Part shown: piece after piece, positions 1,797 through 30,055 of the stretch
Layout: the number at the start of each line of letters is the position of its first letter
Position numbering within the stretch: the first letter of the stretch is position 1
Source: Prevotella sp.
Lineage (GTDB): Bacteria > Bacteroidota > Bacteroidia > Bacteroidales > Bacteroidaceae
Direction: 5' to 3'
Assembly (NCBI GenBank): GCA_017548605.1
Contig: JAFYZT010000008.1
Coordinates: forward strand, 1-64,000
Length of the DNA stretch: 64,000 nucleotides
Made by a program: the position numbers and the translations under genes
The notes under the pieces: generated by a model
What the model was told of the DNA's origin: nothing
Databases searched by the model: none
Seen by the model: only the letters and a program-made list of their open reading frames with translations

Positions 1797-1882
1797 AAAT
1801 CCCAGTATTCACATTTGGAACTTTGAAAACTATTTCATATATTTGCCACAGACAAGCAAAAACATATAATAATGAAGAGGGG
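1797..1882 (+). repeat. Promoter repeat P1, copy 1
   Basis: About 85 bp, near-identical to 28698-28783 on the minus strand and in its central 60 bp to 29994-30055 (minus). It contains a perfect Bacteroidota promoter: TTTG at 1814-1817, a 20-nt spacer, TATATTTG at 1838-1845. Conservation runs on both sides of the promoter boxes, from AAATCCCAGTATTC to AATGAAGAGGGG, while the genes downstream are unrelated. The repeat can be read as peptide (MKTISYICHRQ...), which creates a false upstream start. Confidence 0.85.
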
Positions 1883-1915
1883 GGTATTATTTATAAGCCA
1901 CAAATACATGTGCTT

Positions 1916-2986
1916 ATGATGATTGTGAGAAGATACATATTTCTGCTTTGTTGCATCTTTCTTTTATCATGTAATAATCAAGTAATATATGACAGGGATG
2001 CAACAAAAATATTCTATGTTGAAAATGATTCTTCCTTCGTAGATGAGATTCTCTTAGGATATGATGGAATATCAGACAGGATCCCACGAACAATAGCCAT
2101 TTCATACCTATATGTGAATAGGCACACAGACAAGAAATTTTGGTCTTCATCAATGCCTACCTATTACCGTGCTTATGTTTATGAAGGTAAGGTAGATTTG
2201 GACACTTATAAGTCAATGGTAAAATATATTCAATCATTGGAACTGAAAGAAGGTATGCCCCATAAAACATATGAGCAATGGGGCGCATCGTCGGTTGTCC
2301 TTAAACAAGGAAATAAGCGATATCACAAGTCCATGAGGCGGAGAGAATATGTTGCCTTTCTAAGGGGATTGTTGCCTTTACTAAAGAATGATTCCGGTCT
2401 TCAGGAAGCTGTCAGTAATAAAATCAATATTTACCAAGACGACAATCATCCTTATAAATACGAAGATATGATATACGGTGAACTTGACGAAGTGGAATTC
2501 AATGGGAACAACAAGTTCGCCTTACAATTAAAGTCTTCACTTAACATTGATTATGTCTTTACAGACATTGCGGAGAGGATATATAATAATAAGTTACATC
2601 CATACTCATCTCATGAAGGTGTTCCTCTATATTTAGATTTAAAGTTTAATAGAAATAACATCGATAGCATCGCTTTTGATAAATTCCGCCTTTCCTCTAC
2701 AAAAATACAATTATGCCAAGAAGGACTATCTATGATTCTTCCAACAGAAATAAATGGCGATGAGCAATTGCCTGTATGCTATCTTAGAAAATTGATAAAC
2801 AACAATAATGATATATACATACAGGTCGTCTATTGTATGCTTAATTCATGTGAAGAAGCGAAATCCAAATTAAAAGAAGGTATGCGTTCTGACTATCTTT
2901 CAGACGCATGGTTTGTTTATTACTATGACAAAAAAGCAAAACAATTTGTTTATAAAAAATATATCATCAACCCAAAAGAGATATAA
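1916..2986 (+). CDS. Putative lipoprotein, function unknown
   Basis: The frame is open from a TTG at 1823, but its first 30 codons translate promoter repeat P1. The ATG pair at 1916/1919 begins a clear lipoprotein signal (RRYIFLLCCIFLLSC, Cys about residue 19). The mature part of about 337 residues mixes beta-prone and charged segments and has no motif I recognise. It should be an envelope lipoprotein transcribed from the promoter at 1814-1845. The same promoter block drives the unrelated secreted protein at 27961-28674. Confidence 0.6.
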   Translation: MMIVRRYIFLLCCIFLLSCNNQVIYDRDATKIFYVENDSSFVDEILLGYDGISDRIPRTIAISYLYVNRHTDKKFWSSSMPTYYRAYVYEGKVDLDTYKSMVKYIQSLELKEGMPHKTYEQWGASSVVLKQGNKRYHKSMRRREYVAFLRGLLPLLKNDSGLQEAVSNKINIYQDDNHPYKYEDMIYGELDEVEFNGNNKFALQLKSSLNIDYVFTDIAERIYNNKLHPYSSHEGVPLYLDLKFNRNNIDSIAFDKFRLSSTKIQLCQEGLSMILPTEINGDEQLPVCYLRKLINNNNDIYIQVVYCMLNSCEEAKSKLKEGMRSDYLSDAWFVYYYDKKAKQFVYKKYIINPKEI

Positions 2987-3008
2987 ATTTGATAAAACCG
3001 TACAGTAT

Positions 3009-3107
3009 ATGGATAGATTTTTGAAACTTTTCTATATCTTGTGTTTAGGAATAACAATAGGGACAATTAGTCTTATCGTATATTATTGTTCTGGAAATAC
3101 AGAATAA
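3009..3107 (+). CDS. Possible 32-residue membrane peptide
   Basis: A short frame beginning MDRFLKLFYILCLGITIG and continuing as one hydrophobic helix that ends YYCSGNTE. It starts 22 bases after the preceding lipoprotein stop and is in the same direction, so it could be co-transcribed. The open frame extends upstream into the previous gene, where it is clearly not the coding frame. No Shine-Dalgarno-like site is clear. It may be spurious. Confidence 0.25.
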   Translation: MDRFLKLFYILCLGITIGTISLIVYYCSGNTE

Positions 3108-3116
3108 AGATTAAGG

Positions 3117-3342
3117 CTAACAATAAATATCTTCCATATAGAAGTGCTTCAGGCAGCGGTAGCCGGAGTCGTGGAATAGTATCAAGATGAGCATCACTTC
3201 CGACTTTGACATCGTCGAGTCACGGTGATAATTGCGTTTTCGGGATGTCTTGAGCGTATATTTTGACATCATGGCATCAAAAAAACTGGCAGAAATCATC
3301 TGCAATACAAAACAATTCCGTAACTTTGTTCTCGGTAATCAT
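3117..3342 (-). pseudogene. IS982-family transposase, N-terminal remnant with frameshift
   Basis: Reading down from the ATG at 3342 gives MITENKVTELFCIADDFCQF, the usual opening of IS982-type transposases. The frame breaks at a run of seven T (minus strand). It resumes in the next frame with FFDAMMSKYTLKTSRKRNYH, then STMSKSEVMLILILFH and GYRCLKHFY. That second part matches the conserved SD/KSEVM-ILxxFH-xxR-KHFY region of the family. After about 75 residues the gene ends, so the catalytic core is absent. No terminal inverted repeats were identified. Family assignment is from remembered motifs. Confidence 0.7.
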
Positions 3343-3454
3343 AGCGATTATTGTTTGTAAGCCTTTTTAGCACTATAAAGGTACAACAATTTTCGCTAAT
3401 CACCAAATTCTCAGACAGTTATATTTCGTCGAACTCACGTTAATATAAATAATT

Positions 3455-4129
3455 ATGAAAAAAGTATTTATATTTTTATTTTCCATCATTGCTATAGCAA
3501 GTTCTTGTTCCAAGACAAATGAGGAAAAGATTAAGGCAGCATTTACTCAATATGCAGAAAATCATTTAGACGATCCGTCAAGTTTAGAAATTGTATCTAT
3601 AGAGATTAAAGATACAATTGATATGGTTAAAATGCTTAGTGACGCATCTAATTGGCATGATTCTATAAGCAATGCTAAAGAAAAAGCATGTGATTCCCTT
3701 ATAAATTTAGTCAATAAATATGGTAGAGGTTTGAATAACTTACCGAATTTTAGTAATAAATGGGCTGAGTATATGAATTTATTGGAATCAGGCTTAGGTA
3801 GATCATTTGGAAACGCTATAAATATTCTCTCAGATCTTGATTCTTATACATCTCCAGATAGGATCAATGATGAAGAAGGTATGAAATTGATAACATCTAA
3901 AGTTAAATATAGGACTAAAGAGAATGGTTCCTTGAAATTAAAAGAATTAGATGTATATTCTAGTTTAGATTATGAGAAAATTGAATATACTGGACTTGAT
4001 GATGCACCTGAGAAATATAACAAAATATTGAAAACATTGGATTCATATAATGTTGATAATGAATATAACACTAAAGTGTTAGATTGCGCTCTTTCTATAA
4101 TTTTTCTTATAACTCATGACATTGACTGA
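3455..4129 (+). CDS. Putative lipoprotein, function unknown
   Basis: 224 residues with a lipoprotein signal (MKKVFIFLFSIIAIASSC, Cys 18) and then a charged, mostly helical body. The segment FTQYAENHLDDPSSLEIVSI resembles the start of a small class of Bacteroidales lipoproteins that share an F-x-x-YA-x-x-x-LDDPSS pattern; no function is known to me. A -7-like box (TATATTTC) lies near 3420 without a convincing upstream box. It is AT-rich and follows the decayed transposase. Confidence 0.6.
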   Translation: MKKVFIFLFSIIAIASSCSKTNEEKIKAAFTQYAENHLDDPSSLEIVSIEIKDTIDMVKMLSDASNWHDSISNAKEKACDSLINLVNKYGRGLNNLPNFSNKWAEYMNLLESGLGRSFGNAINILSDLDSYTSPDRINDEEGMKLITSKVKYRTKENGSLKLKELDVYSSLDYEKIEYTGLDDAPEKYNKILKTLDSYNVDNEYNTKVLDCALSIIFLITHDID

Positions 4130-4362
4130 AAAAGGTTGTCACTTTTTGGATAGTTAAACTTAAATGGTTATTACAATAATTACTATCTTACTAATAGTGT
4201 TTACACCTTTTGATCCTTATATCCGTATTGGTGGTTCGAATTCTATAGGTTTCCAAACCTTTTTAAATCACCGTCCCCTTCGGCACGGCCAGGGAGCTGG
4301 CACCTTCGGAGATACTGAGCGCAGACTCCATCTTAATAATCAAACTCATAAATCAAATAGTC

Positions 4363-4638
4363 ATGTTTATAAAAGATAGAACATTTAAAATAATGAATAT
4401 TTCATACATTATCCTTTCTTCATTATTAGGAATTGTATTGATTTATGGAATAATAAACACAAGAGTAAGCCTTAAGTATGAGACTGAAAAGGAAATCTTT
4501 GATTTACATACTAACTTGGCTTCGAATTATATAAAACAAACATTGGAGATTTCATATGAATTTCTAACATATATATTGTTTAACATTTTATATTTATTGC
4601 TGATGGGACATGTCAAATTAAAGAAAAAACAACACTAA
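4363..4638 (+). CDS. Small two-helix membrane protein, unknown
   Basis: 91 residues with two hydrophobic segments: residues 12-32 (NISYIILSSLLGIVLIYGII) and about 63-82 (EFLTYILFNILYLLLMG). A basic tail KLKKKQH follows. A second ATG at residue 12 could be the real start. No family is recognised. It follows a GC-rich patch at about 4263-4331 that is unlike its surroundings. It may be a real inner-membrane protein or a leftover of island decay. Confidence 0.35.
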   Translation: MFIKDRTFKIMNISYIILSSLLGIVLIYGIINTRVSLKYETEKEIFDLHTNLASNYIKQTLEISYEFLTYILFNILYLLLMGHVKLKKKQH

Positions 4639-4802
4639 ACATTGGGGACGAAATGACACGTTATTATCCCATAAACCAGAATGAGGAAAAAGAACTCAAA
4701 TCTATGAAAGGAATGCTTAACATTCCGATTATATCTCGCCTTGCGTATATATGCCAAAACGATTTTTTTAGCCACAAATGAGAGTAATTCGATAAAAAGT
4801 AG

Positions 4803-4810
4803 TATCTTTG
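4803..4810 (+). promoter_or_regulatory. Promoter -7 box (TATCTTTG)
   Basis: A perfect TAnnTTTG box with no good TTTG about 20 bases upstream. It lies about 48 bases before the ATG of the decayed regulator at 4859, and may now drive the rubredoxin gene further down. Confidence 0.4.
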
Positions 4811-4858
4811 TAAACCAGGAGACAAGAAATCTTATTTTCTTACTGTAAGTCATTATAT

Positions 4859-5010
4859 ATGAAATTAGAACCCCTGATAGCTGAATGTACAGCATACGAT
4901 TTAAAGGTGATGCTTGAAGACGAGGCAGTGGACTAACACGCATTTGCAATGAAACCAAAGCCTTGGATGGGTATAAGGAAGAACTGAACCCCCAAATAAT
5001 ACTCCTAATA
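4859..5010 (+). pseudogene. Deletion remnant of an AlbA_2-type ATP-binding regulator
   Basis: The ATG at 4859 opens MKLEPLIAECTAYDLKVMLE, the standard N-terminus of Bacteroidales AlbA_2/AAA_4-type putative transcriptional regulators. The frame stops at 4936. In the next frame, from about 4921, comes [20 protein letters not shown], which matches the C-terminal region of the same family (usually GTGLTRICxET). About 400 residues between them are missing, so an internal deletion fused the ends out of frame near 4918-4925. Both halves are recognised from memory. It decays directly upstream of the rubredoxin gene. Confidence 0.6.
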
Positions 5011-5030
5011 ATTGCCAAAAACCAAACATT

Positions 5031-5192
5031 ATGAAAAAATTCATTTGCGAAACATGCGGGTATGTTTATGACCCCGCAGTAGGCGATCCCGACAATGGGA
5101 TTGAGCCGGGCACAGCCTTTGAGGACATACCCGAAGACTGGGTATGCCCTATCTGTGGCGTGGGCAAGGATGATTTCTCGCCCGAGGACTAA
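5031..5192 (+). CDS. Rubredoxin
   Basis: A 53-residue protein with the full rubredoxin iron site: CxxCG at Cys6/Cys9 and CPxCG at Cys39/Cys42, with the conserved [13 protein letters not shown] ending. It is a one-electron carrier in the cytoplasm, often serving rubrerythrin, superoxide reductase or other oxygen-defence enzymes in anaerobes. Length is normal. The ATG follows an A-rich stretch without a strong Shine-Dalgarno site, which is usual in this phylum. Its stop overlaps the convergent aldo/keto reductase stop by four bases. No partner oxidoreductase lies nearby, apart from the aldo/keto reductase, which does not normally use it. Confidence 0.95.
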
Positions 5193-6175
5193 AGGATTTC
5201 GTTGAGGTTTGTTGCCAGTTGTTCCACACTGCTGGCACCTACCAATACTGACGTGACCCCTTTCTGAGACAGAATCCAGCGGAGGGCGTACCCAGCCAGG
5301 GTGCGCCCTTCTTGGTGCGCCTCCTCGTTCCATGTCTGCAACTGGCGCAACAGCTCGGGCGTAAGTGTCTGCTGTGAGAGTGACGTGTTACGGCTCATGC
5401 GCGACCCCTCGGGGATGCCGTTGAGGTAACGGTTGGTGAGCAGCCCCTGTGCCAAGGGCGAGAAGGAGATGAAGCCGATGCCCTCTTGTTCGCAGAAGGC
5501 GAGCTGTCCCTGCTCCATCGGTTCGCGGTTGAGCATATTGAGCTTGGCCTGATAGATGAGCAGCGGCACGTCACGTTCCTTCAGGTAGGCGTGGGCTTTC
5601 TTCAGCTCTTCCACCGGCCAGTTGGAGATGCCGATATAGAGTGCCTTGCCTTGTCGGACGATGTCGACGAGTGTCTGCAACGTCTCTTCGATGGGTGTGA
5701 GCGGGTCATAGCGATGGCTGTAGAACAGGTCGACATAGTCGAGATGCATACGCTTGAGGCTCTGATCCAGACTTGCCATGAGGTATTTCCGCGAACCCCA
5801 GTTGCCGTAGGGACCGGGCCACATGTCGTAACCGGCCTTGCTGCTGATGAACAGCTCGTCGCGGTAGGGTCGGAAATCATCGTCCATCAGTCGTCCCATG
5901 GTCTCCTCGGCACTGCCGTAGGGAGGACCGTAGTTATTGGCCAGGTCGAAATGAACGATGCCATGGTCGAAAGCATAATGGGTGATGGCACGGCTGCGTT
6001 CGTAGGGGTCCACGCCACCGAAGTTATGCCAGAAGCCCAATGATAGTTTGGGAAGGAGCACACCGCTCCGGCCGCAACGAACATATAGTTCTCCAGATTG
6101 TTCGTAACGATGGGGAGATGGAAAAGCCCCACCTCCATCCCCTCCCGAGGGAGGGGCGTAAATAGCTTTGCTCAT
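5189..6175 (-). CDS. Aldo/keto reductase, YghZ/GAPR-like
   Basis: 328 residues, a complete AKR barrel. Catalytic residues are visible: Asp/Tyr in [12 protein letters not shown], Lys in SSKAGY and His in YSHRYD. The opening [20 protein letters not shown] is typical of the YghZ (L-glyceraldehyde 3-phosphate reductase-like) group, which reduces small aldehydes with NADPH. The N-terminus is odd: [16 protein letters not shown], between MSKAIY and RYEQSGEL, translates the CCCTCCC/GGGAGGG repeat module. The repeat thus appears inserted in frame after codon 6. The substrate is unknown. Confidence 0.9.
6123..6158 (-). repeat. Hairpin-tail module inside the reductase start
   Basis: On the minus strand this reads CCCTCCC, a 3-nt loop, GGGAGGGG, then GGAGGTGGGG, resembling the module seen at many stop codons. 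Here it is at the 5' end of the gene, with the G-rich tail on the coding strand, the reverse of the usual orientation. It is translated in frame. Confidence 0.6.
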
Positions 6176-6182
6176 AGGGTGT

Positions 6183-6450
6183 AATATTTAAATGGATTTT
6201 TAATAGGGAGTTAAAATGGAAGATAATTCGCTTCGCTCATGGTTTTTTTAAGAGGGAGTTAAATTGGGAGTTAAAGTTGAAGTTAATTCGCTTCGCTCAA
6301 GGAAGTTAAAATGGACATTACTCCGCCTTTTACCTCTTTACTTTTTTGCTCTTTTACCCTTTCAGGCTATTGTCCTGCACGTAGTGCTTTACTTCCCCTT
6401 TTACTTCCTTCTATTACTTCCTTTTTTACTTCCCTTTTTACTCCCTTCTA
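6183..6450. repeat. Composite intergenic repeat, type B
   Basis: No gene fits here. The segment holds two copies of a GAAGTTAATTCGCTTCGCTC-like unit with a small hairpin, then CTCTTTAC and CTTTTACC tandem runs, the linker GGCTATTGTCCTGCAC, and finally ACTTCC/TTTTTACT tandem runs that reach the ispG stop codon. The reverse complement of 31758-31960 has the same modules in the same order with the same linker, so the two are inverted copies of one composite element of about 200-270 bp. Confidence 0.8.
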
Positions 6451-7827
6451 TTACTCCTTTTTACTTCTTTCAATAATCTCCAGCAGCCGTTCGACGGCTT
6501 CTTCTTCGGGGATATTTTTCAGAACACATTCCTTGCCTCGGTAGAGGGATATCTTACCCCTGCCGGCACCGACATAGCCGTAGTCGGCATCGGCCATCTC
6601 GCCCGGTCCGTTGACGATGCATCCCATGATACCGATTTTCAGTCCCACGAGATGTTGGGTGGCTTCCTTGATGCGTGCGATGGTGCGCGGCAGGTCGTAG
6701 AGCGTGCGCCCGCAGCCCGGACAGGAGATATATTCCGTCTTCGTGAATTTGATACGTGCGGCTTGTAGGATGGCGTCGGCCAGCGTTACCAGCTGCTCGC
6801 TGCTGAACGTTGGGCTGTGGAGTACCAGCTGGTGCGCCTTGCGGTCGATGAGCAGGGCACCGACGGCCATGGCAGCTTTCAGTTGCAGTGTCTCCCAGTC
6901 GGGAGCGTCCAGTTGGAGGGTGATGGTATCGTCGTGGATGGACTCCTCTGCCTTCTGTCGCAACAGCGTACATTCCGGGATGAGCTCCACCAGTTTTCTG
7001 GCCACGGGAATCTCACATTCCGGCTCCTCCGACAGACTGACGCGGATGGTGTCGCCGATGCCTTCGGTGAGCAGGGAACCGATGCCCACGGCACTCTTGA
7101 TACGTCCGTCCTCGCCCTCGCCCGCCTCGGTCACACCGAGGTGCAGTGGATAATGCATGTCCTCACCATCCATCGTCTTGACCAACAGTCGTACGGTCTG
7201 CACCATGACGACGGTGTTCGATGCCTTGATGCTGATGACCACATCGTTGAACTGCTCGCGTTGGAAGATGCGCAGAAACTCCATGCAGCTCTCCACGATA
7301 CCCTCGGGCGTGTCGCCGTAGCGAGACATGATACGGTCGGAGAGCGAGCCGTGGTTCACGCCGATGCGCACCGCCGTATGCTGTTCCTTGCAGATAGTGA
7401 TGAAGGGAAGGAGTCGGGCCTCAATCTTTTTCAGTTCCTCCTGGTATTCCTCATCGGAATATTCGAGGTGCTTGAATGTGCGGGCAGGGTCAACATAGTT
7501 TCCGGGGTTGATGCGAACCTTTTCACAGTACCGCGCCGCCACATCGGCCACGTTGGCATTGAAATGGACGTCGGCCACCAGCGGCTGCGGATAGCCGTCG
7601 GCCTTCAGTCGGGTGGAGATATTCTTCATGTTCTCAGCCTCGCGCGTGCCCTGTGTGGTGAAACGTACTAGTTCACCACCGGCATCGATGATACGCTTGG
7701 CCTGAGCCACACAGCCCTCGGTGTCGTTGGTATCGACGGTGGCCATCGACTGGATACGGATGGGGTTGTCGCCACCGATGGCGATATCCCCCACCTGGCA
7801 GACGCTGCTAATTCGTCTTGTACTCAT
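6451..7827 (-). CDS. ispG: 4-hydroxy-3-methylbut-2-en-1-yl diphosphate synthase (IspG)
   Basis: 458 residues. IspG reduces methylerythritol cyclodiphosphate to HMBPP in the MEP isoprenoid pathway, using a [4Fe-4S] cluster. The TIM barrel (about 1-285) holds conserved IQSMATVDTNDTEGCV and GVNHGSLSDR. The cluster domain has Cys369, Cys372 (SCPGCGRT) and Cys403 (GCIVNGPGE), with Glu410 as usual. Between them lies a segment (about 290-360) that seems a shortened form of the extra A* domain found in Bacteroidota and Chlamydia enzymes, which I recall as about 600 residues. The last codons (SKKE, stop) run into a tandem repeat. It overlaps purE by 20 bases and is probably co-transcribed with it. Confidence 0.97.
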   Translation of the reverse strand: MSTRRISSVCQVGDIAIGGDNPIRIQSMATVDTNDTEGCVAQAKRIIDAGGELVRFTTQGTREAENMKNISTRLKADGYPQPLVADVHFNANVADVAARYCEKVRINPGNYVDPARTFKHLEYSDEEYQEELKKIEARLLPFITICKEQHTAVRIGVNHGSLSDRIMSRYGDTPEGIVESCMEFLRIFQREQFNDVVISIKASNTVVMVQTVRLLVKTMDGEDMHYPLHLGVTEAGEGEDGRIKSAVGIGSLLTEGIGDTIRVSLSEEPECEIPVARKLVELIPECTLLRQKAEESIHDDTITLQLDAPDWETLQLKAAMAVGALLIDRKAHQLVLHSPTFSSEQLVTLADAILQAARIKFTKTEYISCPGCGRTLYDLPRTIARIKEATQHLVGLKIGIMGCIVNGPGEMADADYGYVGAGRGKISLYRGKECVLKNIPEEEAVERLLEIIERSKKE

Positions 7828-8308
7828 ATTTCACTTCCGCCAAGTCCATGTTCGCCTTCTCAATCTTCTGTTTCAGGCCCTCCTTGTAGGTGGCGAGGCG
7901 CTGAGCGATGTCATTGTCGGCCAGTGCCAGCATCTCCGTAGCCAGCACCGCCGCGTTCATAGCACCATTGACACTTACCGTGGCCACGGGGATGCCCGGA
8001 GGCATCTGCACGATGCTCAGCAGGGCATCGAGACCGTCGAGCATTCCCTTGATGGGCACACCGATGACGGGCAGGGTGGTCTGTGCGGCGATGACTCCCG
8101 GCAGGGCGGCCGCCATACCGGCGCCGGCGATGATGACTTTCACGCCACGGCCTGCCGCCTCCTTGGCGAAGCGTTCCACGGCCTCCGGCGTGCGATGTGC
8201 CGACAGGGCGTTCACCTCGAAGGGAATCTTCATGTCATTGAGAAATGTCATGGCTTTCTCCATGACGGGCAGGTCGGATGTGCTGCCCATGATAATGCTA
8301 ACTTTCAT
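7808..8308 (-). CDS. purE: 5-(carboxyamino)imidazole ribonucleotide mutase (PurE)
   Basis: 166 residues, class I PurE, which converts N5-CAIR to CAIR in purine synthesis. Visible family motifs are IIMGSTSDLPVM (phosphate loop), SAHRTPE, AGAGMAAALPGVIAA and PVIGVPIKG. Its C-terminus overlaps the start of ispG by 20 bases on the same strand, so translation of the two is probably coupled. No purK is adjacent. The ATG is followed on the upstream side directly by a composite repeat, with no clear promoter of the usual type. Confidence 0.97.
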   Translation of the reverse strand: MKVSIIMGSTSDLPVMEKAMTFLNDMKIPFEVNALSAHRTPEAVERFAKEAAGRGVKVIIAGAGMAAALPGVIAAQTTLPVIGVPIKGMLDGLDALLSIVQMPPGIPVATVSVNGAMNAAVLATEMLALADNDIAQRLATYKEGLKQKIEKANMDLAEVKYEYKTN

Positions 8309-8547
8309 TATGAATTTTGAATGTTGAATGTTGAGTTTTGAATTGTCGCTGACGCGATTTTTAGAATGTTGAATGAAGAATATAATTTTGGAGTTAAGGA
8401 GTTAAGAAGTTAAGGAGTTAAGCCATTACCCTGCAGGCATATCTCTTGCCCCTTGCTCCTTGTCCCTTTGGCATTTCTCTCACCCCTCACCTCTCACCCC
8501 TCACCTCTTTATCGCCCCCTCCCTTCGGGAGGGTCGGGGTGGGTATC
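8309..8547. repeat. Composite intergenic repeat, type A, copy 1
   Basis: About 240 bp between the purE start codon and the stop codon of the next gene, with no coding capacity of its own. Modules in order: GAATGTT/GAATTTT octamer-like repeats, TTGTCGC...GCGATTTTT, GGAGTTAA repeats, a linker (GCCATTACCCTG, GGCATATCTCTTGCC), CCTTGCTC and CACCCCTCACCTCT repeats, and a hairpin-tail module (CCCTCCC 8517-8523, GGGAGGG 8527-8533, tail to 8546). The same modules in the same order fill 43933-44159. Confidence 0.85.
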
Positions 8548-9165
8548 CTAATTCCATATCACTGCCCAGAAGGCGCAGACGATGCCGAGGAAGAATCCTG
8601 CCACCACCTGGGGGAGCGTATGTTGTCGGAGTATCATGCGGCAGGTGCCTATGAACCCGGCGAGCAGGATGACCAGACAGAGCCACCACACGGGGTTGAA
8701 GGAGAAAATCTGCGCGAAGGCTGCCAGTGCGCCGGCCAGACCGCCGATGGCCGCCATGTGTGTGGATATTTTCCATTTCATGTTGATGACCGTACAGAGC
8801 ACCTCGATGACCATGGCCGCCACCAGCACACTGCCCACGGAATGGGGGATATGAAACAGGTTGACGACATAGTAGCACACGAAGTAACACACGAAGCAGA
8901 TGAGGTAGGGCACCAGCCGTCGCTCCTTGGCACCCAGTTCGATGGGCGTCCATCCCTGGTAGTTGCGGTAGAAGCTGATGAGCAGCGTGGGTAGCAGGAT
9001 GGTGAGGAAATAGACGATGAGCAGTATCTTCAGCTTTGTCCAGAACGGCAGGAAGGACAGGTAGCTGAACACGAAGAGCAGTAATATGCCGATGAACGGC
9101 ATGTAGAACGGCCTGAACAGCGTGCTCAGTATCTTGGCGGCGGTTATGAGGCTTTTTTCGTTCAT
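8548..9165 (-). CDS. PAP2-superfamily-like membrane protein
   Basis: 205 residues with about six hydrophobic helices. Vestiges of the PAP2 phosphatase motifs can be seen: KERRLVPY (motif 1 region), STHMAAIGG (for PSGH) and CRMILRQHTLPQVVAG (for SRxxxxxHxxxD). The usual Asp after the His is Gln here and the motif 2 Pro-Ser-Gly is changed, so activity is uncertain. Such proteins act on lipid pyrophosphates at the inner membrane. It overlaps the rpoN stop by four bases and so belongs to that operon. A hairpin-tail repeat starts one base after its stop. Confidence 0.7.
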   Translation of the reverse strand: MNEKSLITAAKILSTLFRPFYMPFIGILLLFVFSYLSFLPFWTKLKILLIVYFLTILLPTLLISFYRNYQGWTPIELGAKERRLVPYLICFVCYFVCYYVVNLFHIPHSVGSVLVAAMVIEVLCTVINMKWKISTHMAAIGGLAGALAAFAQIFSFNPVWWLCLVILLAGFIGTCRMILRQHTLPQVVAGFFLGIVCAFWAVIWN

Positions 9166-10667: not shown

Positions 10668-10689
10668 GTGTCGGAATGTGTCGGGAGTG

Positions 10690-11340: not shown

Positions 11341-11352
11341 GATGAAAGGGTT

Positions 11353-12417: not shown

Positions 12418-12434
12418 TGGCTGTTGTCGTGTTT

Positions 12435-12992: not shown

Positions 12993-13015
12993 TGCCGAAA
13001 TTGCTGTTTGCTATG

Positions 13016-14800: not shown

Positions 14801-14801
14801 C

Positions 14802-24061: not shown

Positions 24062-24101
24062 TGAATAATAAAAGATTTTATGGGTTTTTCAATATTTGGT
24101 G

Positions 24102-24132
24102 CAAAGGTAGTGCAAACCGAAGACAATACAAA
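24102..24132 (-). promoter_or_regulatory. Promoter for the CoA-transferase (TTTG-N19-TACCTTTG)
   Basis: Minus strand: TTTG (24132-24129), 19-nt spacer ending CGGTTTGCAC, TACCTTTG (24109-24102), 41 bases before the ATG. Same repeat type as the promoter at 13016-13047. Confidence 0.8.
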
Positions 24133-24285
24133 ATAAAATGATTTTTATTTTTATTGTTGAGGTGCCGCCTACTTTATCTAAAGTAGTTTAAGTTGAGCGA
24201 AAAGCAAAGAAAAAAATACTTTTTCTTTCTTTTCCGAGGTGCAGCCTACCTTATAGAAAGGTAGTGCAAGTTGAGTGAAAAACCC
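24102..24285. repeat. GGTAGTGCAA...GAGCG promoter-type repeat array
   Basis: Three units of the element seen at 13016-13150: around 24102-24120, 24168-24202 and 24238-24280. The last two are preceded by small stems (CTACTTT/AAAGTAG and CTACCTT/AAGGTAG) and followed by GTTGAGYGAAAA. Only the first unit has a full promoter. The space between the CoA-transferase and the TonB-like gene holds nothing else. Confidence 0.75.
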
Positions 24286-24312
24286 ACAAAACCATTAAGG
24301 GAGAGCACTCAT

Positions 24313-24723
24313 TTATTCGAGTTTGAAGGTGACAGGGACGCTATATCTTACGCGTATGGGCTGTCCATTTTGTGTTCCAGGAATCCATTTTGGCATGGAC
24401 TTAACGATGCGGAGGGCTTCCTTGTCGAAGGCAGGATCCAGGCCCCTCACAACTTTTAAATCGGTGAGGCTGCCGTCTGTCTCCACTACAAAGGTAACGA
24501 TAACCCGACCCTGGACATCCGCCTCAACGTCGGGCCACAGCAAATTTTCTTTCAGAAATTGGAGCATAGCCTCTTGTCCGCCGGGAAAGGACGGATAGGT
24601 ATAGGGGATACCACAATAAATACTGTCCTGTTTCACGCTGTCTTTTCGTTCACCAGTCTCTTGTGCCAATACCGGCAACATAGCCCATGCAGCCATCAAG
24701 GCCATCATCGTTATTCTTTTCAT
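24313..24723 (-). CDS. Secreted TonB C-terminal domain protein
   Basis: 136 residues from the second ATG (MKRITMMALMAAWAMLPVLA signal peptide). The rest is a TonB C-terminal domain: FPGGQEAMLQFLKENLLWP, then VQGRVIVTFVVETDGSLTDL, and ending KWIPGTQNGQPIRVRYSVPV. The domain normally touches the TonB box of outer-membrane receptors. Here it has no membrane anchor and no Pro-rich periplasmic arm, so it is a free periplasmic form, common in Bacteroidales. A near-exact copy of its promoter region precedes the unrelated lipoprotein at 25002. Confidence 0.85.
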   Translation of the reverse strand: MKRITMMALMAAWAMLPVLAQETGERKDSVKQDSIYCGIPYTYPSFPGGQEAMLQFLKENLLWPDVEADVQGRVIVTFVVETDGSLTDLKVVRGLDPAFDKEALRIVKSMPKWIPGTQNGQPIRVRYSVPVTFKLE

Positions 24724-24736
24724 CATTATTTGTTAT

Positions 24737-24858
24737 TTGCAAAGATAATCAATTAATCATCCTTTTGCAATACCCTATCGCTTATTGACACAATTAAAAA
24801 TAGCAACAAACTGAAAAACAACATGTTGCAGATATTGCCACATTCTTTTTGACACAAC
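24737..24858 (-). repeat. Promoter repeat P2, copy 1
   Basis: 122 bp, differing at about eight positions from 25668-25789 in direct orientation. The end next to the gene holds a promoter: ATTG (24771-24768), 20-nt spacer, TATCTTTG (24747-24740). The rest (GCTTATTGACACAA, GCAACAAACTGAAAA, TTGCAGATATTGCC, TTTTTGACACAAC) has no known role. The stretch from there to 25001 holds no gene I can see. Confidence 0.85.
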
Positions 24859-25001: not shown

Positions 25002-25598
25002 TCAATAAGGCCCGTGTATATATAAGGATTTAACTTCTTTCTTTTCAATATCCACTATCATATGCCCGAACCACTTTCCTCCGTCATATACCATTAACCA
25101 CTCATCTTTTAATTCTCTTGCCCATCCGTTTGGAGTTTGTTCTGATGTGAACATATTCACATATACTAGTCTCTTCCCATCGTTCTCTTTATATCCTATA
25201 TATTGTTTGAAATAGTAATTATAGGGGAATGGTTTTTTACTATCATCAATACTATCAGTACCAACACTAGTATCAATACTGGCGAAATGCTTTTTTACAA
25301 GATTTCGTGCAATATTGAATTCATCTTCCGAAAGGATGAATACAGAATCTTTGACAACATCAAATTCCAAATCTAGCACAGGAATTGACAAATCCTCAAT
25401 CCTGATGTCCAATGAGTCAATAGGCTTATCTTTTGCTTTGACGACAGGCCATTTCATTCTTGCATCCATCTCAGCCAGATGCTTTCTTAATTCTTCTTTC
25501 GAATCCTGAACGGTTTCTTTTCTCCCGGAATTTGAGCAGTTAATGAATAAAACAGCAGCAATTATTGCTAGAAAAATCAGATAACTATTTGATTTCAT
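25002..25598 (-). CDS. Putative lipoprotein, unknown
   Basis: 198 residues with a lipoprotein signal (YLIFLAIIAAVLFINC, Cys 21). The body is acidic, with DARMKWPVVKAKDKPIDSLD and a later KDEWLMVYDGGKWFGHMIVD segment that is beta-like. No family is recognised. First gene, in map order, of the AT-rich minus-strand island. Its promoter is P2 copy 2, nearly the same as that of the TonB-like gene, although the proteins are unrelated. Confidence 0.6.
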   Translation of the reverse strand: MKSNSYLIFLAIIAAVLFINCSNSGRKETVQDSKEELRKHLAEMDARMKWPVVKAKDKPIDSLDIRIEDLSIPVLDLEFDVVKDSVFILSEDEFNIARNLVKKHFASIDTSVGTDSIDDSKKPFPYNYYFKQYIGYKENDGKRLVYVNMFTSEQTPNGWARELKDEWLMVYDGGKWFGHMIVDIEKKEVKSLYIHGPY

Positions 25599-25667: not shown

Positions 25668-25789
25668 TTGCAAAGATAATCAAAAAATCATCTTTTTGCA
25701 ATACCCAATCGCTTATTGACACAATCAAAAATAGCAACAAACTGAAAATCAACGCGTTGCAGATATTGCCACATTCTTTTTGACACAAC
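25668..25789 (-). repeat. Promoter repeat P2, copy 2
   Basis: Second copy of the 122-bp block at 24737-24858. Promoter ATTG (25702-25699), 20-nt spacer, TATCTTTG (25678-25671). A 67-codon frame can be read through it, but the copy at 24737 does not keep that frame, so I treat it as non-coding. Confidence 0.85.
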
Positions 25790-25813: not shown

Positions 25814-26545
25814 TTATTCCTTCTTATCATAGATATCACCTCTCCAGTAAATCTTTTTGTTTTCCACTTTAAAATATTCTCCTCTAATATAATTTCTTGC
25901 AAATGAATCTTCGCTAATATCACTAAATGTTATCATTAATTCTTTAGTATTTTTCTCTATAGGAATCTCGTTCGTTATATAGTATGGAATGGTCCCCACA
26001 AAATCAGCATCATATAAATCTAAATCATAAATATTGAAATCATAAGGGTTGTATATTCTTATCGAAATGTTTGATATATCTTCTTTCGAAATTTTGATTA
26101 TTTCATTAGAATAATAATCATTAATAAAGTAATGGCGAAAAGCAGTTATCACCTCCAAATTAAATCTATTGTGATATGAAGGTACACGAACTCGAATTAT
26201 CATCAAGGAATTATCATTTAAACTGTCAAGTTCCGCAGATACATTCATATTATCTATAAAAATAGACATAGGATTATCAACGGAATTAATGGAAAAGAAG
26301 CCCCCCTTCTCCTTTTTGAGACTACATGTAGCACAGGGAATAGCACTAACATTATGAAGAGGTCTGAAATCTAATAATTCATAATAGAATGTACCATCTT
26401 TTATTATTATTCTTTTATCGCCCTCCTTGTTTATATAAACTCCATCAATGTTTTGAGAGTAAGTTTCGGTATGAACAATAAAAGAAAGAATAGCACAAAA
26501 GGTAATTTTGGCTATCATCACAAAATGAGTTTTAAATCTTTCCAT
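25814..26545 (-). CDS. Secreted protein, unknown
   Basis: 243 residues. A signal peptide (FVMIAKITFCAILSFIVHTE, cleavage near TYSQ) is followed by INKEGDKRIIIKDGTFYYEL, a pattern of small beta-barrel lipocalin-like secreted proteins in this phylum. A CATC motif near residue 71 might bind metal or form a disulfide. Function unknown. An AATATTTG box at 26564-26571 (minus strand) could be its promoter. Confidence 0.55.
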   Translation of the reverse strand: MERFKTHFVMIAKITFCAILSFIVHTETYSQNIDGVYINKEGDKRIIIKDGTFYYELLDFRPLHNVSAIPCATCSLKKEKGGFFSINSVDNPMSIFIDNMNVSAELDSLNDNSLMIIRVRVPSYHNRFNLEVITAFRHYFINDYYSNEIIKISKEDISNISIRIYNPYDFNIYDLDLYDADFVGTIPYYITNEIPIEKNTKELMITFSDISEDSFARNYIRGEYFKVENKKIYWRGDIYDKKE

Positions 26546-26603
26546 TTGTATCCTCTTTTCTATTCAAATATTGTTTTTTTGTTGTCTGGCACCTGCATCC
26601 CAT

Positions 26604-26654
26604 ACATTTGAAAACGAGTTTTTTGGGGTTTATAGACCTCGTTTGTACCTTTCC
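26604..26654 (-). repeat. Island repeat R1, copy B (diverged)
   Basis: Shares with copy A the GGAAAGGT, ACGAGGTCTAT and GTTTTCAAATGTA segments. When read as protein, A and B even give the same GKVQTRSI stretch in their frames. It lies between two unrelated island genes, just downstream of the gene at 26760. Confidence 0.6.
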
Positions 26655-26759
26655 GCTTTCACTTTCAAGACCCCTTGTGGCTGAAAACCACGTTACTGTC
26701 ATGGTCAGTATTTCAATTTCTCCATTTTGGTGATACTTGTCCCATAGATTCACAGGATT

Positions 26760-27335
26760 TTATGGAGTCGGATACTTTTGAAGGGGTTCTAGATATCCAT
26801 AGTACTCATGATACTTGAGGGTCATTCTTTTCCTTGTAATAACATCTCTTAAGAGTCCATAGCTGATGGTATCTTCTTTCCATGCAGAAGTATTTATTAT
26901 TAAGTTTTTGTAACCATCATTGTATACTATTTGATTGTCTTTATTCGTGATAAGATGGTAACTTTTTAAATCTGATAAATCACTTAGGACTATTCTGTCG
27001 TCATCATGAAACCAGACATTTGTCTTACCTAAATAGACAGAATCTCCAGAAACGAAACACATATCTACATCTTCAAGAAATTCAATATTATCATAACGGT
27101 TATCTTCCGTTTTCTTAAAATAACAGACATACAATTTTGCATTTGAATAGATAGGCTCTTCACACGATTTATACCTTTCTTCTGCTTCTTTTATTTCTAA
27201 CGAATGATATGAATCGATAAAAGCTGTTTCCAGGATCTTAATTTCAAATATAGATATTTTTTGTTTGCATGAAATGTTGCATGCCATGAAAAATAGCATG
27301 ATGCAAAGAATCAGTAATTTATTAAGATAAAACAT
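26760..27335 (-). CDS. Putative lipoprotein, unknown
   Basis: 191 residues from the ATG at 27335; an ATG 33 bases upstream is possible. A lipoprotein signal ends FFMAC. The body contains KRYDNIEFLEDVDMCF-like acidic and aromatic stretches and ends in a Tyr-rich EYYGYLEPLQKYPTP. No domain is recognised. It is AT-rich and shares direction with the neighbouring island genes, but the 130-base gap upstream argues against tight coupling. Confidence 0.55.
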   Translation of the reverse strand: MFYLNKLLILCIMLFFMACNISCKQKISIFEIKILETAFIDSYHSLEIKEAEERYKSCEEPIYSNAKLYVCYFKKTEDNRYDNIEFLEDVDMCFVSGDSVYLGKTNVWFHDDDRIVLSDLSDLKSYHLITNKDNQIVYNDGYKNLIINTSAWKEDTISYGLLRDVITRKRMTLKYHEYYGYLEPLQKYPTP

Positions 27336-27465
27336 TCTGGAATGCTTCAAACCTGCGATTGATTTCATGATCTTTTCAATTTCCTTGTTCCCTACGTTTT
27401 TATCACATATAAGACTAAACTATCATTATCAAAACATATTATCGAATTCTCTTTATTCCTCGTGA

Positions 27466-27918
27466 TTAAGACCTTTTCTTTTTTGCCAAATATTTTCTTA
27501 TTCTTTTCAATGCGTATTTCTTTGAAATAATGCGTTTGCTCCAAATAACTATTACAGCATCATATCCATTATCTAAAGATTCTTCCTCATTGAGTATAAT
27601 AAGTTGACAGCATTTGGCCCAACTACTATTATCGAGATTAGCAATTCTGAAAATGTAATTCTTTTCTTCAATCAAACCTCCTCCGGAACCTCCAAGAAAA
27701 AAGCATTTTTTCCCTGTGAAATCAAAAGAATCCCTTTTTTGGCTGAATAGAATATTCAAAAACTTGCTCTCATCTTCGTTGAGAAGGCAACTATTGTCCT
27801 TACCCAAGTTTTCTGGATTTATTCCATTCTCATGCGTCTTTACCCCACCATTTATTTGAGAACTTACGAACGTCGGAAAGACCAATAATAAAAGCGGAAT
27901 TATTTTCTTTATTTTCAT
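27466..27918 (-). CDS. Secreted protein, unknown
   Basis: 150 residues from the ATG at 27918 (signal MKIKKIIPLLLLVFPTFVSS). The mature part has a Gly-rich patch (KKCFFLGGSGGGLIEE), paired Cys (WAKCCQLIIL) and a very basic C-terminus (SKKYALKRIRKYLAKKKRS). It lies 42 bases after the stop of the 27961 gene and may be translated from the same transcript. No family is recognised. Confidence 0.5.
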   Translation of the reverse strand: MKIKKIIPLLLLVFPTFVSSQINGGVKTHENGINPENLGKDNSCLLNEDESKFLNILFSQKRDSFDFTGKKCFFLGGSGGGLIEEKNYIFRIANLDNSSWAKCCQLIILNEEESLDNGYDAVIVIWSKRIISKKYALKRIRKYLAKKKRS

Positions 27919-27960
27919 ATTATTTCTTGTTTTATGGTTATTCATTTATCTTAATGGCTC

Positions 27961-28674
27961 CTATTTCGTTTTTTTCCTCCAATCCCTTTCTTCGATATTT
28001 GGTAAGACATCATCTATTAGACCTTGTGTATCAAAGTCTGCCTTACTCTCCGTATAATTGAATTTGGAATAATCCATATAGAAGAAAAAATGAAGACACG
28101 CCACCCACCATTTAGAATCTCTTTCTATGGCAGAAAAATCAGAATAAGGAATATAATATGTTCTATAGTATGGTCGTTTTTCAGTATTCATAAAATCCTC
28201 CACGCCTATAACCCCTCGAAGAAACACGCCTCTTATAAACGATACATATACTTTAACTGTAGATTTCCCTCTAAAAGGCCTATCTAATCCATAATAGACG
28301 TCTTCCTTTTTTACCCAATTCTTCGTTATCTTTTGAACGAAGTGTCTGTTTTTTGAAATAATGTCGTAAAACTCATGTGGATACTTCATATATGTGTCAC
28401 TTCCATAGCGGCTATTGGCATACCAAATGGTGTCACCTTTAGAAATTTGCTCAACATTATATATGCTAATAGGCGAGTCGGGTTTATAGATGGGGTACAC
28501 CTTTAATTTGCCGTTTTCGACAAGAGAATCTATTTCGGCTATCCAATATAACGTGTCACGACCATTGATGTCTTTTTGTTCAAATGACATCACCACATAA
28601 TCTTTTATGTCCAATTTCTGTGAAAGAGTAATTAGAGGACAACAAAATAAAATGAATAATACAAACTGTTTCAT
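27961..28674 (-). CDS. Secreted protein, unknown
   Basis: 237 residues from the ATG at 28674 (signal MKQFVLFILFCCPLITLSQ). The mature part has DTLYWIAEIDSLVENGKLKV, a pattern of secreted beta-proteins, and several Trp and Tyr residues, including WWVACLHFFFYMDYSKF. No domain is recognised. It is driven by the P1 promoter at 28735-28766, nearly the same block as that of the unrelated lipoprotein at 1916. Confidence 0.55.
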   Translation of the reverse strand: MKQFVLFILFCCPLITLSQKLDIKDYVVMSFEQKDINGRDTLYWIAEIDSLVENGKLKVYPIYKPDSPISIYNVEQISKGDTIWYANSRYGSDTYMKYPHEFYDIISKNRHFVQKITKNWVKKEDVYYGLDRPFRGKSTVKVYVSFIRGVFLRGVIGVEDFMNTEKRPYYRTYYIPYSDFSAIERDSKWWVACLHFFFYMDYSKFNYTESKADFDTQGLIDDVLPNIEERDWRKKTK

Positions 28675-28697
28675 AATATTATCTTTCAAATGCATTA

Positions 28698-28783
28698 CCC
28701 CTCTTCATTATTATATGTTTTTGTTTGTCTGTGGCAAATATATGAAATAGTTTTTAAAGTTCCAAATTTGAATACTGGGATTT
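28698..28783 (-). repeat. Promoter repeat P1, copy 2
   Basis: The minus-strand counterpart of 1797-1882. Promoter: TTTG (28766-28763), 20-nt spacer, TATATTTG (28742-28735). Differences from copy 1 are few single bases. Outside the block the two loci are unrelated, apart from R1 nearby. Confidence 0.85.
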
Positions 28784-28811
28784 AACGTTGTTACATGCAA
28801 ATAACCGTCTG

Positions 28812-28874
28812 AATTACAACAAGTAGCACGTTTTTTACATGTTACATTTGAAAATGCGTATTTTCTGGTCTATA
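28812..28874 (-). repeat. Island repeat R1, copy C
   Basis: Inverted relative to copy A at 241-331, and shares its core and the GTGCTACTTGTTGTAAT end. It is only about 30 bases upstream of P1 copy 2. In the left island about 1.5 kb containing two genes separates R1 and P1, which suggests insertion or deletion of gene cassettes between fixed repeats. Confidence 0.75.
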
Positions 28875-28929
28875 GCCCAGTCCCTGTATGCTCGCACTAT
28901 TATAAATACAAACCAATAAAAGAATCACA

Positions 28930-29400
28930 TTATTCGCTTTGCATATTAGTAGAGAAAACATTGTTAATTCTCATTTTGTCATCAAATATAAATAGATATA
29001 GCCTGACCATGGTAAACAAATCTGTTTTATAATGTTTAAAATAGTGATAATCAACGATTTCCGCCATTATCATTTTGTTCTCCATTTTAGAAAACCTCAA
29101 CAGATGTTCTGGATTACTCACTTTCTTTGATAAACGATGGATTAATATTTCTGTCGTTTGACTCTTATCGGCATCTAATTCCAAAAACGAAGATTCTGCA
29201 CTTCCCTTTAATAGTATTTTTGCAAAATTTCTATCAAAATCAAATAAGCTATCACTAACAATTATATGTTTCCTTTTTGTCATCAAATCTTTCGCAATGA
29301 ACGTATAAGCATTTCTGTAGGGATTACAGGTACTTTTGTTCATCGTACTACAAGAAATGACACAAAACAATGCAAATAAAAATATCGCCGTTTTCTTCAT
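28930..29400 (-). CDS. Putative lipoprotein, unknown
   Basis: 156 residues from the ATG at 29400 (signal MKKTAIFLFALFCVISC, Cys 17). The body has SSFLELDADKSQTTEILIHR and a C-terminal YHYFKHYKTDLFTMVRLYLF segment, beta-like. No family is recognised. Upstream ATGs (29460, 29418) do not improve the signal. There is no P1-type promoter; the 29401-29529 gap shows no clear consensus. Confidence 0.5.
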   Translation of the reverse strand: MKKTAIFLFALFCVISCSTMNKSTCNPYRNAYTFIAKDLMTKRKHIIVSDSLFDFDRNFAKILLKGSAESSFLELDADKSQTTEILIHRLSKKVSNPEHLLRFSKMENKMIMAEIVDYHYFKHYKTDLFTMVRLYLFIFDDKMRINNVFSTNMQSE

Positions 29401-29529
29401 AGGTATCTTCTGTTTCATAAGTTTTCCCTTTATGATCAATCTTTGACCTGAACTAAACAACTTTTGGTTAGTCGAATTACCTGTATTTTCCTTTTGCTGC
29501 TTTTATCCACCGCCCCCCGATACTTGATT

Positions 29530-29964
29530 TCAACCTTTTTTTACACGGAAAACATTTGAATATTCCGTGCTTATCAATTCCAAATTTGTTTTTCTTATAT
29601 TGAACCTAAATCTATATAAATTATCACAGCCTTTCCTATACATTGTTCTTTTTATCTTCCATTTTTCTTTTCTATTGTTTTCATTCTCCTTTAAAAATAT
29701 ATTATTCTCAACCTTACGAATATGGGGTATTTGGAAAATGTCTTCTGCAAATAATGTCCATCTATCATTTTCCTTTTTTTCTAAAGAAATAGATATAAGA
29801 ACCTTTTCCTCGCAATTTTTTTTGAAATTAAAAGTAATATCATCGTAGATGGTATACTCAGTCTGAATAGAATCAATTTCTAAACAAGGTGCTGTTGACT
29901 GTGCGTTTGAATAGTATGCAAAGTCAAGTAATACAAATAACATCAAGTATTTTATTGTTGTCAT
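29530..29964 (-). CDS. Secreted protein, unknown
   Basis: 144 residues from the ATG at 29964, chosen because GAGGAACTAAAAAAG sits before it and a signal peptide follows (MTTIKYLMLFVLLDFAYYSN). The frame reads upstream into promoter repeat P1, giving a false MKTISYICHRQ start like that at 1823. The mature part (IDSIQTEYTIYDDITFNFKK, then KVLISISLEKK) resembles a small immunoglobulin-like or fibronectin-like beta domain, as often seen in Bacteroidota secreted proteins. No exact family is recognised. Confidence 0.55.
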   Translation of the reverse strand: MTTIKYLMLFVLLDFAYYSNAQSTAPCLEIDSIQTEYTIYDDITFNFKKNCEEKVLISISLEKKENDRWTLFAEDIFQIPHIRKVENNIFLKENENNRKEKWKIKRTMYRKGCDNLYRFRFNIRKTNLELISTEYSNVFRVKKG

Positions 29965-29993
29965 CTTTTTTAGTTCCTCCATCTGTCGAATGA

Positions 29994-30055
29994 TTATATT
30001 TGTTTTTGTTTGTCTGTGGCAAATATATGAAATAGTTTTCAAAGTTCCAAATCTG
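29994..30055 (-). repeat. Promoter repeat P1, copy 3
   Basis: Shorter copy of P1 with promoter TTTG (30051-30048), 20-nt spacer, TATATTTG (30027-30020). It precedes the gene at 29530 and marks the right edge of the AT-rich island. Confidence 0.85.

Follow-up and report, generated by a model that had tools for sequence, protein, structure and literature searches.

Dispersed islands of putative Rhs orphan-immunity genes behind a duplicated promoter block in Prevotella

The first 64,000 nucleotides of contig JAFYZT010000008.1 of a Prevotella sp. genome (GCA_017548605.1), here called the window, contain two groups of small genes in which near-identical promoter blocks stand in front of apparently unrelated coding sequences. 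What are these genes, and why should the same promoter precede such different ones? We propose, with a probability of about 0.7, that these islands are dispersed Rhs orphan-immunity cassettes, which stand behind copies of one promoter and are exchanged through homologous recombination.

The principal block, P1, occurs three times in the window, together with a diverged relative that was placed in the family by a 15-block alignment:

226..456, forward strand: diverged P1-family block, a regulator tail plus promoter with TATATTTG, preceding the gene at 431-1120
1797..1882, forward strand: P1 copy 1, with TTTG-N20-TATATTTG, preceding the lipoprotein gene at 1823-2986
28698..28783, reverse strand: P1 copy 2, preceding the gene at 27961-28695
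29994..30055, reverse strand: P1 copy 3, core only, preceding the gene at 29530-30042

Copies 1 and 2 are 97% identical over 86 nt, copy 3 is about 94% identical across 63-64 nt, and TTTG-N20-TATATTTG is present in all three, in agreement with the first-pass annotation. Three further copies elsewhere (C1:134571, 93%; C25:86374, 94%; C32:138129, 82%) bring the genome total to six. This similarity is not due to chance, since the five non-query copies have E-values between 5e-35 and 1e-15. In a scan of 200 genomes of the genus, scoring at most four candidates per genome, strong P1 matches were confined to two close genomes; the remaining matches were short. The metagenome-assembled Prevotella sp. 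RGIG7148, a close relative, serves as the reference throughout. Copies of a regulator tail plus promoter lie at several loci in two related genomes. P1 is thus not confined to one genome with a fixed set of genes behind it, as it is also found in RGIG7148 and the genes behind it vary.

The genes of the two islands are as follows:

431..1120, forward strand: immunity-like lipoprotein gene, 47% identical at the amino-acid level to the gene standing second after an Rhs tip on C11 of the same genome
1281..1781, forward strand: small gene, no family assigned
1823..2986, forward strand: orphan immunity-like lipoprotein, protein start at about 1919; its RGIG7148 orthologue follows an Rhs-core ORF
3455..4129, forward strand: lipoprotein gene, missing at the corresponding RGIG7148 locus
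4363..4638, forward strand: small membrane protein gene, missing at the corresponding RGIG7148 locus
25002..25598, reverse strand: immunity-like lipoprotein with paralogues on C32 and C18
25814..26545, reverse strand: exported protein, not found at the corresponding RGIG7148 locus
26760..27368, reverse strand: lipoprotein gene within a 99.2%-identical segment
27466..27945, reverse strand: exported protein gene within a 1,696-bp identical run
27961..28695, reverse strand: exported protein behind P1, 67% identical at the amino-acid level to a gene of the regulator-linked C25 island
28930..29460, reverse strand: lipoprotein gene whose orthologue directly follows P1 in RGIG7148
29530..30042, reverse strand: exported protein behind P1, missing at the corresponding RGIG7148 locus

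Genes behind the tail-plus-promoter blocks are small, AT-rich, mostly exported and mutually unrelated. Between 25002 and 30042 seven island genes, of 159-244 codons, share one orientation, and GC content is 0.30-0.36 in the island kilobases and 0.41 in the edge kilobase at 24-25 kb. That unrelated genes follow P1 is borne out: when the first genes behind the six copies were compared among themselves by BLASTP, none matched at E<=10 with the database size fixed at 100,000. The further claim that all first genes encode lipoproteins fails: the gene at 24313-24726, behind a second type of block, encodes a TonB_C protein, 29530-30042 has no lipobox under the pattern used, and that of 27961-28695 is doubtful. 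Pfam and NCBIfam scans of island genes gave nothing above cut-off apart from this TonB_C domain, and searches of solved structures gave no credible match. Matches below threshold included Imm-NTF2-2, Imm42 (E=0.008) and DUF4943 (E=1.5e-5), that to Imm-NTF2-2 coming from a C32 island gene (E=4.7e-4; 20.7 bits against a cut-off of 26). Carriage by viruses was considered and set aside, the P1 core having no exact match in viral_contigs and neither the 25002 nor the 27961 family having a confirmed relative in that collection.

P1 is the stretch 3' of a TPR/HTH-type regulator gene, whose product has a lipoprotein signal and an HTH C-terminus, with TPRs in its relatives. The annotated repeat R1, with copies at about 239-307, 26603-26656 and 28828-28878, is real as a set of copies, which represent the 3' end of this regulator gene rather than a free repeat:

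52..300, forward strand: regulator remnant in which the lipoprotein signal is fused to the C-terminal HTH; its 3' end is R1
26603..26656, reverse strand: R1 remnant, representing the 3' end of the regulator; the 99.2%-identical segment has its left edge about 17 nt away
28779..28878, reverse strand: R1 plus the upstream part of the P1 copy 2 block

Judged from its sequence, the ORF at 52-300 is apparently an internally deleted regulator. An intact Rhs gene of 2,073 aa on C55 has a TPR regulator of this broad family upstream of it. The neighbour of a further regulator, on C12, was also considered as an Rhs/YD-repeat gene and not confirmed as one: 769 residues of it match neither Rhs nor YD. The P1 blocks carry a ACATGTAAA repeat, and this pair was not found in the sequence around either the C55 or the C12 regulator.

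Such remnants raise the possibility that the islands are simply debris of Rhs loci, in which segments of regulator tail, promoter and immunity gene were duplicated and then decayed, so that the likeness of the P1 copies would reflect recent ancestry without selection as a system. The identity of R1 as a regulator tail, the deleted form of ORF 52-300, the presence of strong P1 in only two related genomes, and the gene fusions and truncated tails that we observed all fit this account. Against it, the island genes retain open frames and signal sequences, the 32-nt promoter core is unchanged in five of six copies while the upstream portions vary, and orthologous loci differ by whole genes immediately after P1 with frames intact. 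We consider debris unlikely, and prefer to read the islands as orphan-immunity cassettes.

The immunity role, which the first-pass annotation offered as speculation, receives direct support from orthologues and paralogues linked to Rhs genes. The RGIG7148 orthologue of 1823-2986 (96.6% amino-acid identity across 355 aa) shares 4 nt with the end of an ORF carrying an Rhs core (Rhs_assc_core, 63.6 bits against a cut-off of 32.5), whereas the window locus has P1 in front and no Rhs gene. The tip of this RGIG7148 ORF has no counterpart among the five Rhs tips found in our own genome, three sharing only a linker of 9-13 residues and two nothing. Within our own genome, the gene directly after an Rhs tip on C3 shows 72.7% identity with the one that comes first behind P1 on C32, and the gene following the C36 tip shows 34-35% identity with a C25 gene behind a diverged P1-family block. 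A single comparison gave a weaker resemblance (30%, E=1e-5) between the gene behind P1 at C1:134571 and the one following the C16 tip. An Rhs core, variable tip and adjoining small gene occur together on RGIG7148 C89 and on our C3, C36 and, weakly, C16, an arrangement that holds for the relatives and not for the window loci themselves. On C11, the relative of an island gene is the second gene after the tip. The C25 island may continue into the Rhs locus on C3. In other genomes, distant relatives of gene 25002 were flanked by an Rhs core, within the sequence fetched, at 3 of 24 loci, with the Rhs ORF immediately preceding the gene in two of the three; for the 27961 family the count was 0 of 3 loci outside our genome. 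Seven Rhs tips were scanned without a match to a known toxin domain, and none of the genome's five Rhs cores lies on C1. Of the nine Rhs places, seven are no more than 1.7 kb from the end of a contig, so that 'orphan' status here rests on fragmented genomes, our own being 92% complete. On this comparative evidence, the immunity role of island genes toward Rhs tips is putative.

A quite different account would have the genes encode surface or stress proteins that share a regulator, with the promoter blocks as marks of the regulon and the proximity of some relatives to Rhs genes a coincidence. As this account would expect, no Rhs link is seen for 27961, 29530 and C25:86.5k, three of the genes directly behind the six P1 copies. 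Against it, island genes were matched by 4 of 13 Rhs-linked genes and 0 of 98 flanking controls (p=1.2e-4), or 1 of 99 if a TonB-TonB match is counted (p=5e-4), a comparison made after the Rhs-island pairs had been spotted by eye. The 4-nt overlap with an Rhs ORF and the turnover of cargo between two close genomes also speak against it. In favour of this account is the second block type, P2, which looks like a true regulon:

24313..24726, reverse strand: gene for a TonB C-terminal domain protein, not immunity
24737..24858, reverse strand: P2 copy b, preceding the TonB_C gene at 24313-24726
25668..25789, reverse strand: P2 copy a, preceding the lipoprotein gene at 25002-25598

These are the only full-length P2 copies in the genome; they are 93% identical over 122-127 nt, as near-identical as had been claimed, and carry ATTG-N20-TATCTTTG. 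Three weaker relatives elsewhere span 57-72 nt at 79-81% identity. P2-type promoters contain two copies of TGTGTCAA and stand before two TonB_C genes, one DUF4919 gene and gene 25002; no gene was found behind a fifth. By its sequence and neighbours, then, P2 is a TonB_C-associated promoter type that an immunity-like gene has joined; this gene may have been inserted beside such a promoter, with tandem duplication following. The grouping of P1 and P2 in a single system is rejected. As an explanation of the islands as a whole, a surface or stress regulon seems to us improbable.

The comparison with RGIG7148 lends support to the cassette idea of the first-pass annotation. Cargo differs in all six shared loci compared between these two related genomes; the P1 copy at 29994-30055, for example, precedes in RGIG7148 the orthologue of 28930-29460, not that of 29530-30042. 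One stretch, by contrast, is the same in both:

27336..29031, no strand assigned: 1,696-bp run identical to RGIG7148, holding one P1 cassette

Between 13 and 36 kb of the window, the longest exact run outside this segment is 237. To the right of the island, at 30.2-31.6 kb, local identity is 95-99.5%, so that the identical stretch stands out less there than a 5-kb average would imply. Some breakpoints adjoin P1 or R1 and at least two lie inside genes. The islands had also been described as inverted relative to each other. They do face opposite ways, and no inversion separates our genome from RGIG7148: the aligned parts of window positions 1919-13139 and about 13659-35332 have the same orientation on a single RGIG7148 contig, and a site-specific inversion between the islands was rejected on this collinearity.

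We are now able to outline how such a system might work. Island genes would act as antidotes against Rhs toxins from neighbouring cells, and the shared P1 would supply each captured antidote with a working promoter. Homology for recombination could be offered by the regulator tail and P1, by P2 with its leader and by shared gene ends, allowing cassettes to be added, removed and exchanged with no need for a dedicated recombinase. P1 promoters may be controlled in trans by the locus regulator, and P1 itself may be a recombination site. More tentatively, and in our estimate doubtful, P1 and the regulator tail could form a portable capture site, promoter and homology arm in one, at which immunity genes, free or from nearby, would recombine into a position where they are expressed; antidotes to the Rhs toxins of neighbours would in this way be collected under one regulator without a site-specific recombinase. 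The same gene is found once after an Rhs ORF and once alone behind the shared promoter in two related genomes, and such paired snapshots make the origin of an orphan immunity gene directly testable. P1 could also be used as a promoter tag for finding further orphan immunity genes in Prevotella. We found no description of this arrangement in the open-access texts consulted on orphan immunity, Rhs, polyimmunity, Prevotella or the rumen.

Three known systems invite comparison. The rAID arrays of Bacteroidales, in the text available from PMC12247911, consist of short, AT-rich genes in one orientation that are orphans related to immunity genes of toxin loci, and they have conserved sequences between the genes. 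The islands resemble them in orientation, in GC content below the 41% used for rAID arrays, in kinship to toxin-linked immunity genes and, through the P1/R1 blocks, in having a conserved intergenic motif, counted here for its presence and not for likeness to the published one. They could for these reasons be taken for a rAID-type array, an identification we think has little chance of being right. Unlike such an array they occupy several dispersed loci, their conserved block consists of a regulator tail plus promoter, and the links found are to Rhs genes. A Pfam scan of ten genes close to the islands and regulators detected no recombinase, and a simple pattern, run without a positive control, found no tyrosine-recombinase motif across 333 kb. 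An association with type VI secretion found no support: the marker PF05943 (TssC) was detected in an E. coli control and in neither of the two genomes, and PF17541, which matched nowhere, says nothing on the matter. Dispersed Rhs immunity cassettes would extend orphan immunity to a setting outside the type VI secretion context in which the available rAID text places it.

The heterogeneous polyimmunity loci of Zhang et al. (2012, PMC3482391), as their accessible text describes them, are tandem sets of unrelated immunity genes in one orientation with strain-variable content. The islands are alike in their tandem, co-oriented genes and in content that differs between related genomes, and the genes directly behind P1 are unrelated by sequence; the islands also run without interrupting toxin genes, there being no Rhs core on C1. 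As that text presents them, polyimmunity loci usually number one per organism, whereas several such loci occur in this genome, with a repeated shared promoter block and mostly undescribed families. Finally, the Rhs loci of Salmonella and Serratia, in the parts of PMC10539506 and PMC3967940 available to us, combine a core, a variable tip and an immunity gene, and include orphan tips or immunity genes. The loci described here have the same core, tip and putative immunity gene and likewise putative orphan immunity genes, and differ from those accounts in that, in a Prevotella relative, the presumed immunity gene also stands away from the toxin, behind a duplicated promoter.

The blocks P1 and P2 lie where the first-pass annotation had placed them in the window:

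P1, 1797-1882 (+), one block
P1, 28698-28783 (-), copy 2
P1, 29994-30055 (-), one block
P2, 24737-24858 (-), one block
P2, 25668-25789 (-), one block

P1 is present in six copies in the 3.25-Mb genome. All six carry TTTG-N20-TATATTTG, and the 32-nt core is identical in five, with one base different in the sixth. Bacteroidota promoters have a consensus of the -33/-7 type, and P1 may well be an active promoter. The promoter skeleton is itself common in this genome, since it has 34 exact sites versus two for the reversed pattern; P1 is distinguished from the other skeleton sites by long flanking identity. When 15 P1-family blocks of the two related genomes were aligned, all shared ATATATTTG without change, and seven had an exact ACATGTAAA pair upstream. 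The genes that follow P1 had been described as unrelated, and the six downstream genes indeed show no mutual similarity. The islands of small exported-protein genes have a GC content of 0.30-0.36 per kilobase, versus 0.50-0.58 in most kilobases around them; intermediate values (0.41-0.42) occur at 13-15 kb and 24-25 kb.

Other repeats are also present in the window. Intergenic repeats of the TGCAAAGGTAGTGCAAACCGAGCG type (~35-54 nt, 63-85% alike) lie at 13014-13152 and 24100-24288, 11 kb apart. Between two housekeeping genes, 6187-6461 contains short tandem repeats, in the form of TTTACTTCC units and of a 56-nt pair, with related stretches near 31.8 and 35.5 kb.

The repeat near P1, R1, is a regulator gene's 3' end, and P1 is the intergenic stretch downstream of this tail. 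The longest regulator copy joined to R1 is a 352-aa frame at the start of contig C25, truncated by the contig end. It matches a LuxR-type HTH weakly (GerE, E=0.0013, below cut-off) and on visual inspection has a single membrane segment. The start of C31 holds a regulator N-terminal part with a lipoprotein signal, and window ORF 52-300, in which such a first part is joined to the last part, looks like an internal deletion of the regulator. Matches to the NCBIfam BT3442 family, all well below cut-off, were found for the complete regulators on C55 (E=2e-16) and C12 (4e-17) and for the partial C25 frame (8e-12). The C55 regulator has TPRs above cut-off, and an intact 2,073-aa Rhs ORF lies downstream of it after two small intervening genes. 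Behind the C12 regulator lies a large ORF that looks Rhs-like by eye; because 769 of its residues gave no Rhs or YD match, it was left out of the Rhs count. The regulator may control the genes behind P1.

An exact scan for the P1 core in one genome per species (84,980 species, possibly omitting the window's own genome) found one other genome, the water-buffalo abomasum MAG Prevotella sp. RGIG7148 (G200), with three records; the assignment of the window's genome to Prevotella is based on this close relative. Among 200 genomes of the genus, with at most four candidates scored per genome (so that the listing shows only four of the six copies in the window's genome), 22 others had P1 matches, all short and weaker. 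Between the window's genome (G000) and G200, cargo differs at six of six comparable loci.

Cargo at comparable loci in G000 and G200.
Locus a, window 1-5000: Rhs ORF in G200; P1 and two additional genes in G000
Locus b, window 24.3-30 kb: 25814-26545 and 29530-30042 in G000 only; second 25002-type gene and DUF4943-like gene (match that of an 86%-identical C49 paralogue, below cut-off) in G200 only
Locus c, C32 (L022:6179-7603) vs G200 C3 (L081:8245-8922): gene 6974-7603 of L022 in G000 only; ~800-nt difference
Locus d, C25 right end vs G200 C49: first three genes common; then DUF4943-like gene in G200, contig end in G000
Locus e, C1 right end vs G200 C60: same regulator tail, then different cargo
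Locus f, C18 vs G200 C41, left flank only: shared gene (94.9%); then Rhs-core ORF to contig end in G200, 25002-type gene in G000

Gene 29530-30042 lies directly behind P1, and the two genomes agree upstream and across the P1 core before diverging. At the G200 C3 junction, one immunity-like gene contributes its signal peptide and lipobox, fused in frame to the mature portion of the following gene. On C18, the 136 nt after the 25002-type gene match the terminal part of window gene 1823-2986 at 96% identity. In G000, the right end of C25 (L021) and the left end of C3 (L100) hold overlapping parts of one gene, and an Rhs ORF lies further along C3; the unjoined contig overlap suggests that the C25 P1 island continues into the C3 Rhs locus.

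The P1 copy 2 cassette lies within a segment (26673-29430) that differs from G200 at 22 of 2,758 nt (99.2% identity), with an exact 1,696-nt run (27336-29031) spanning P1 copy 2 and its gene. Average identity in the flanks (4.3 and 5.2 kb) is 92.3% and 93.0%. Identity in the right flank rises locally to 95-99.5% (30.2-31.6 kb), which counts against a simple reading of the segment, but no other exact run above 237 nt was found at 13-36 kb outside it. An R1 remnant lies ~17 nt from the left edge of the segment. The simplest explanation is that this cassette was recently transferred or converted. More generally, the repeated blocks may serve as sites of recombination.

Five P2-type promoters were found in G000 (the two in the window, L017, L018 and L019), and all carry TGTGTCAA twice. 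Downstream of four of them lie two TonB_C genes (24313 and another on C25), a DUF4919 gene and 25002; for one, no downstream gene was found. These promoters probably represent a separate regulon. In the window, P2 and an immunity-like gene are followed by a second P2 and the TonB_C gene. The G200 locus starts with an immunity-like gene and continues with P2, another immunity-like gene and the TonB_C gene, with no P2 separating the last two. Leader and trailer segments match between the genomes in permuted order, a pattern that unequal crossing-over within a tandem promoter-gene unit would be expected to produce.

The key Rhs link concerns window lipoprotein 1823-2986. G200 contig C89 starts within an Rhs ORF. 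This ORF, whose core domain scores 63.6 bits against a cut-off of 32.5 and is followed by ~186 variable residues, ends at 931, and the next gene, starting at 928, is 96.6% identical to this lipoprotein over 355 aa; homology with the window starts ~37 nt downstream of P1. As C1 has no Rhs core, and the five G000 Rhs tips share with the C89 tip only a 9-13-residue linker (three) or nothing (two), 1823-2986 is an orphan in G000, as far as the fragmented assembly can tell. Its family gave one weak match elsewhere (E=7e-4), at a locus with an Rhs core.

Other island genes resemble genes beside Rhs tips. On C32, the gene that comes first behind P1 shares 72.7% identity with the immediate downstream neighbour of the C3 tip. 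Two genes behind diverged P1-family blocks also have such relatives: 431-1120 is 47% identical to the gene in second position behind the C11 tip, and one C25 gene is 34-35% identical to the gene that follows the C36 tip. The P1 gene at C1:134571 has 30% identity with the gene following the C16 tip (E=1e-5, single comparison). Island proteins matched 4 of 13 Rhs-linked genes versus 1 of 99 control ORFs (around ten G000 loci, the longest frames of 100 aa or more that do not overlap; p=5e-4, in a test made after the pairs had been noticed by eye). The sole control match was TonB to TonB, and p=1.2e-4 with it removed. Of 24 loci of the 25002 family in other genomes of the genus, three show an Rhs core within the flanking sequence retrieved, two of them with the Rhs ORF directly before the gene; a fourth, with Rhs-like repeats by eye only, was not counted. 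The 27961 family had an Rhs core at none of three loci, and no Rhs link was found for half of the P1 first genes; contig ends come within 1.7 kb of seven of the nine Rhs places in the two genomes. We infer an immunity function for the island genes. A further genome of the genus, G054, has on contig C8 (L129, L135) several consecutive small lipoprotein genes that belong to the 25002 and related families. The flanking sequence retrieved shows no Rhs core, and this is possibly another orphan array.

The island cassettes, with the position, sequence, cargo turnover and Rhs links observed here, have parallels in rAID arrays (PMC12247911) and polyimmunity loci (PMC3482391). The G000 cassettes come without a detected recombinase, are dispersed over several loci and share a repeated regulator-tail promoter.
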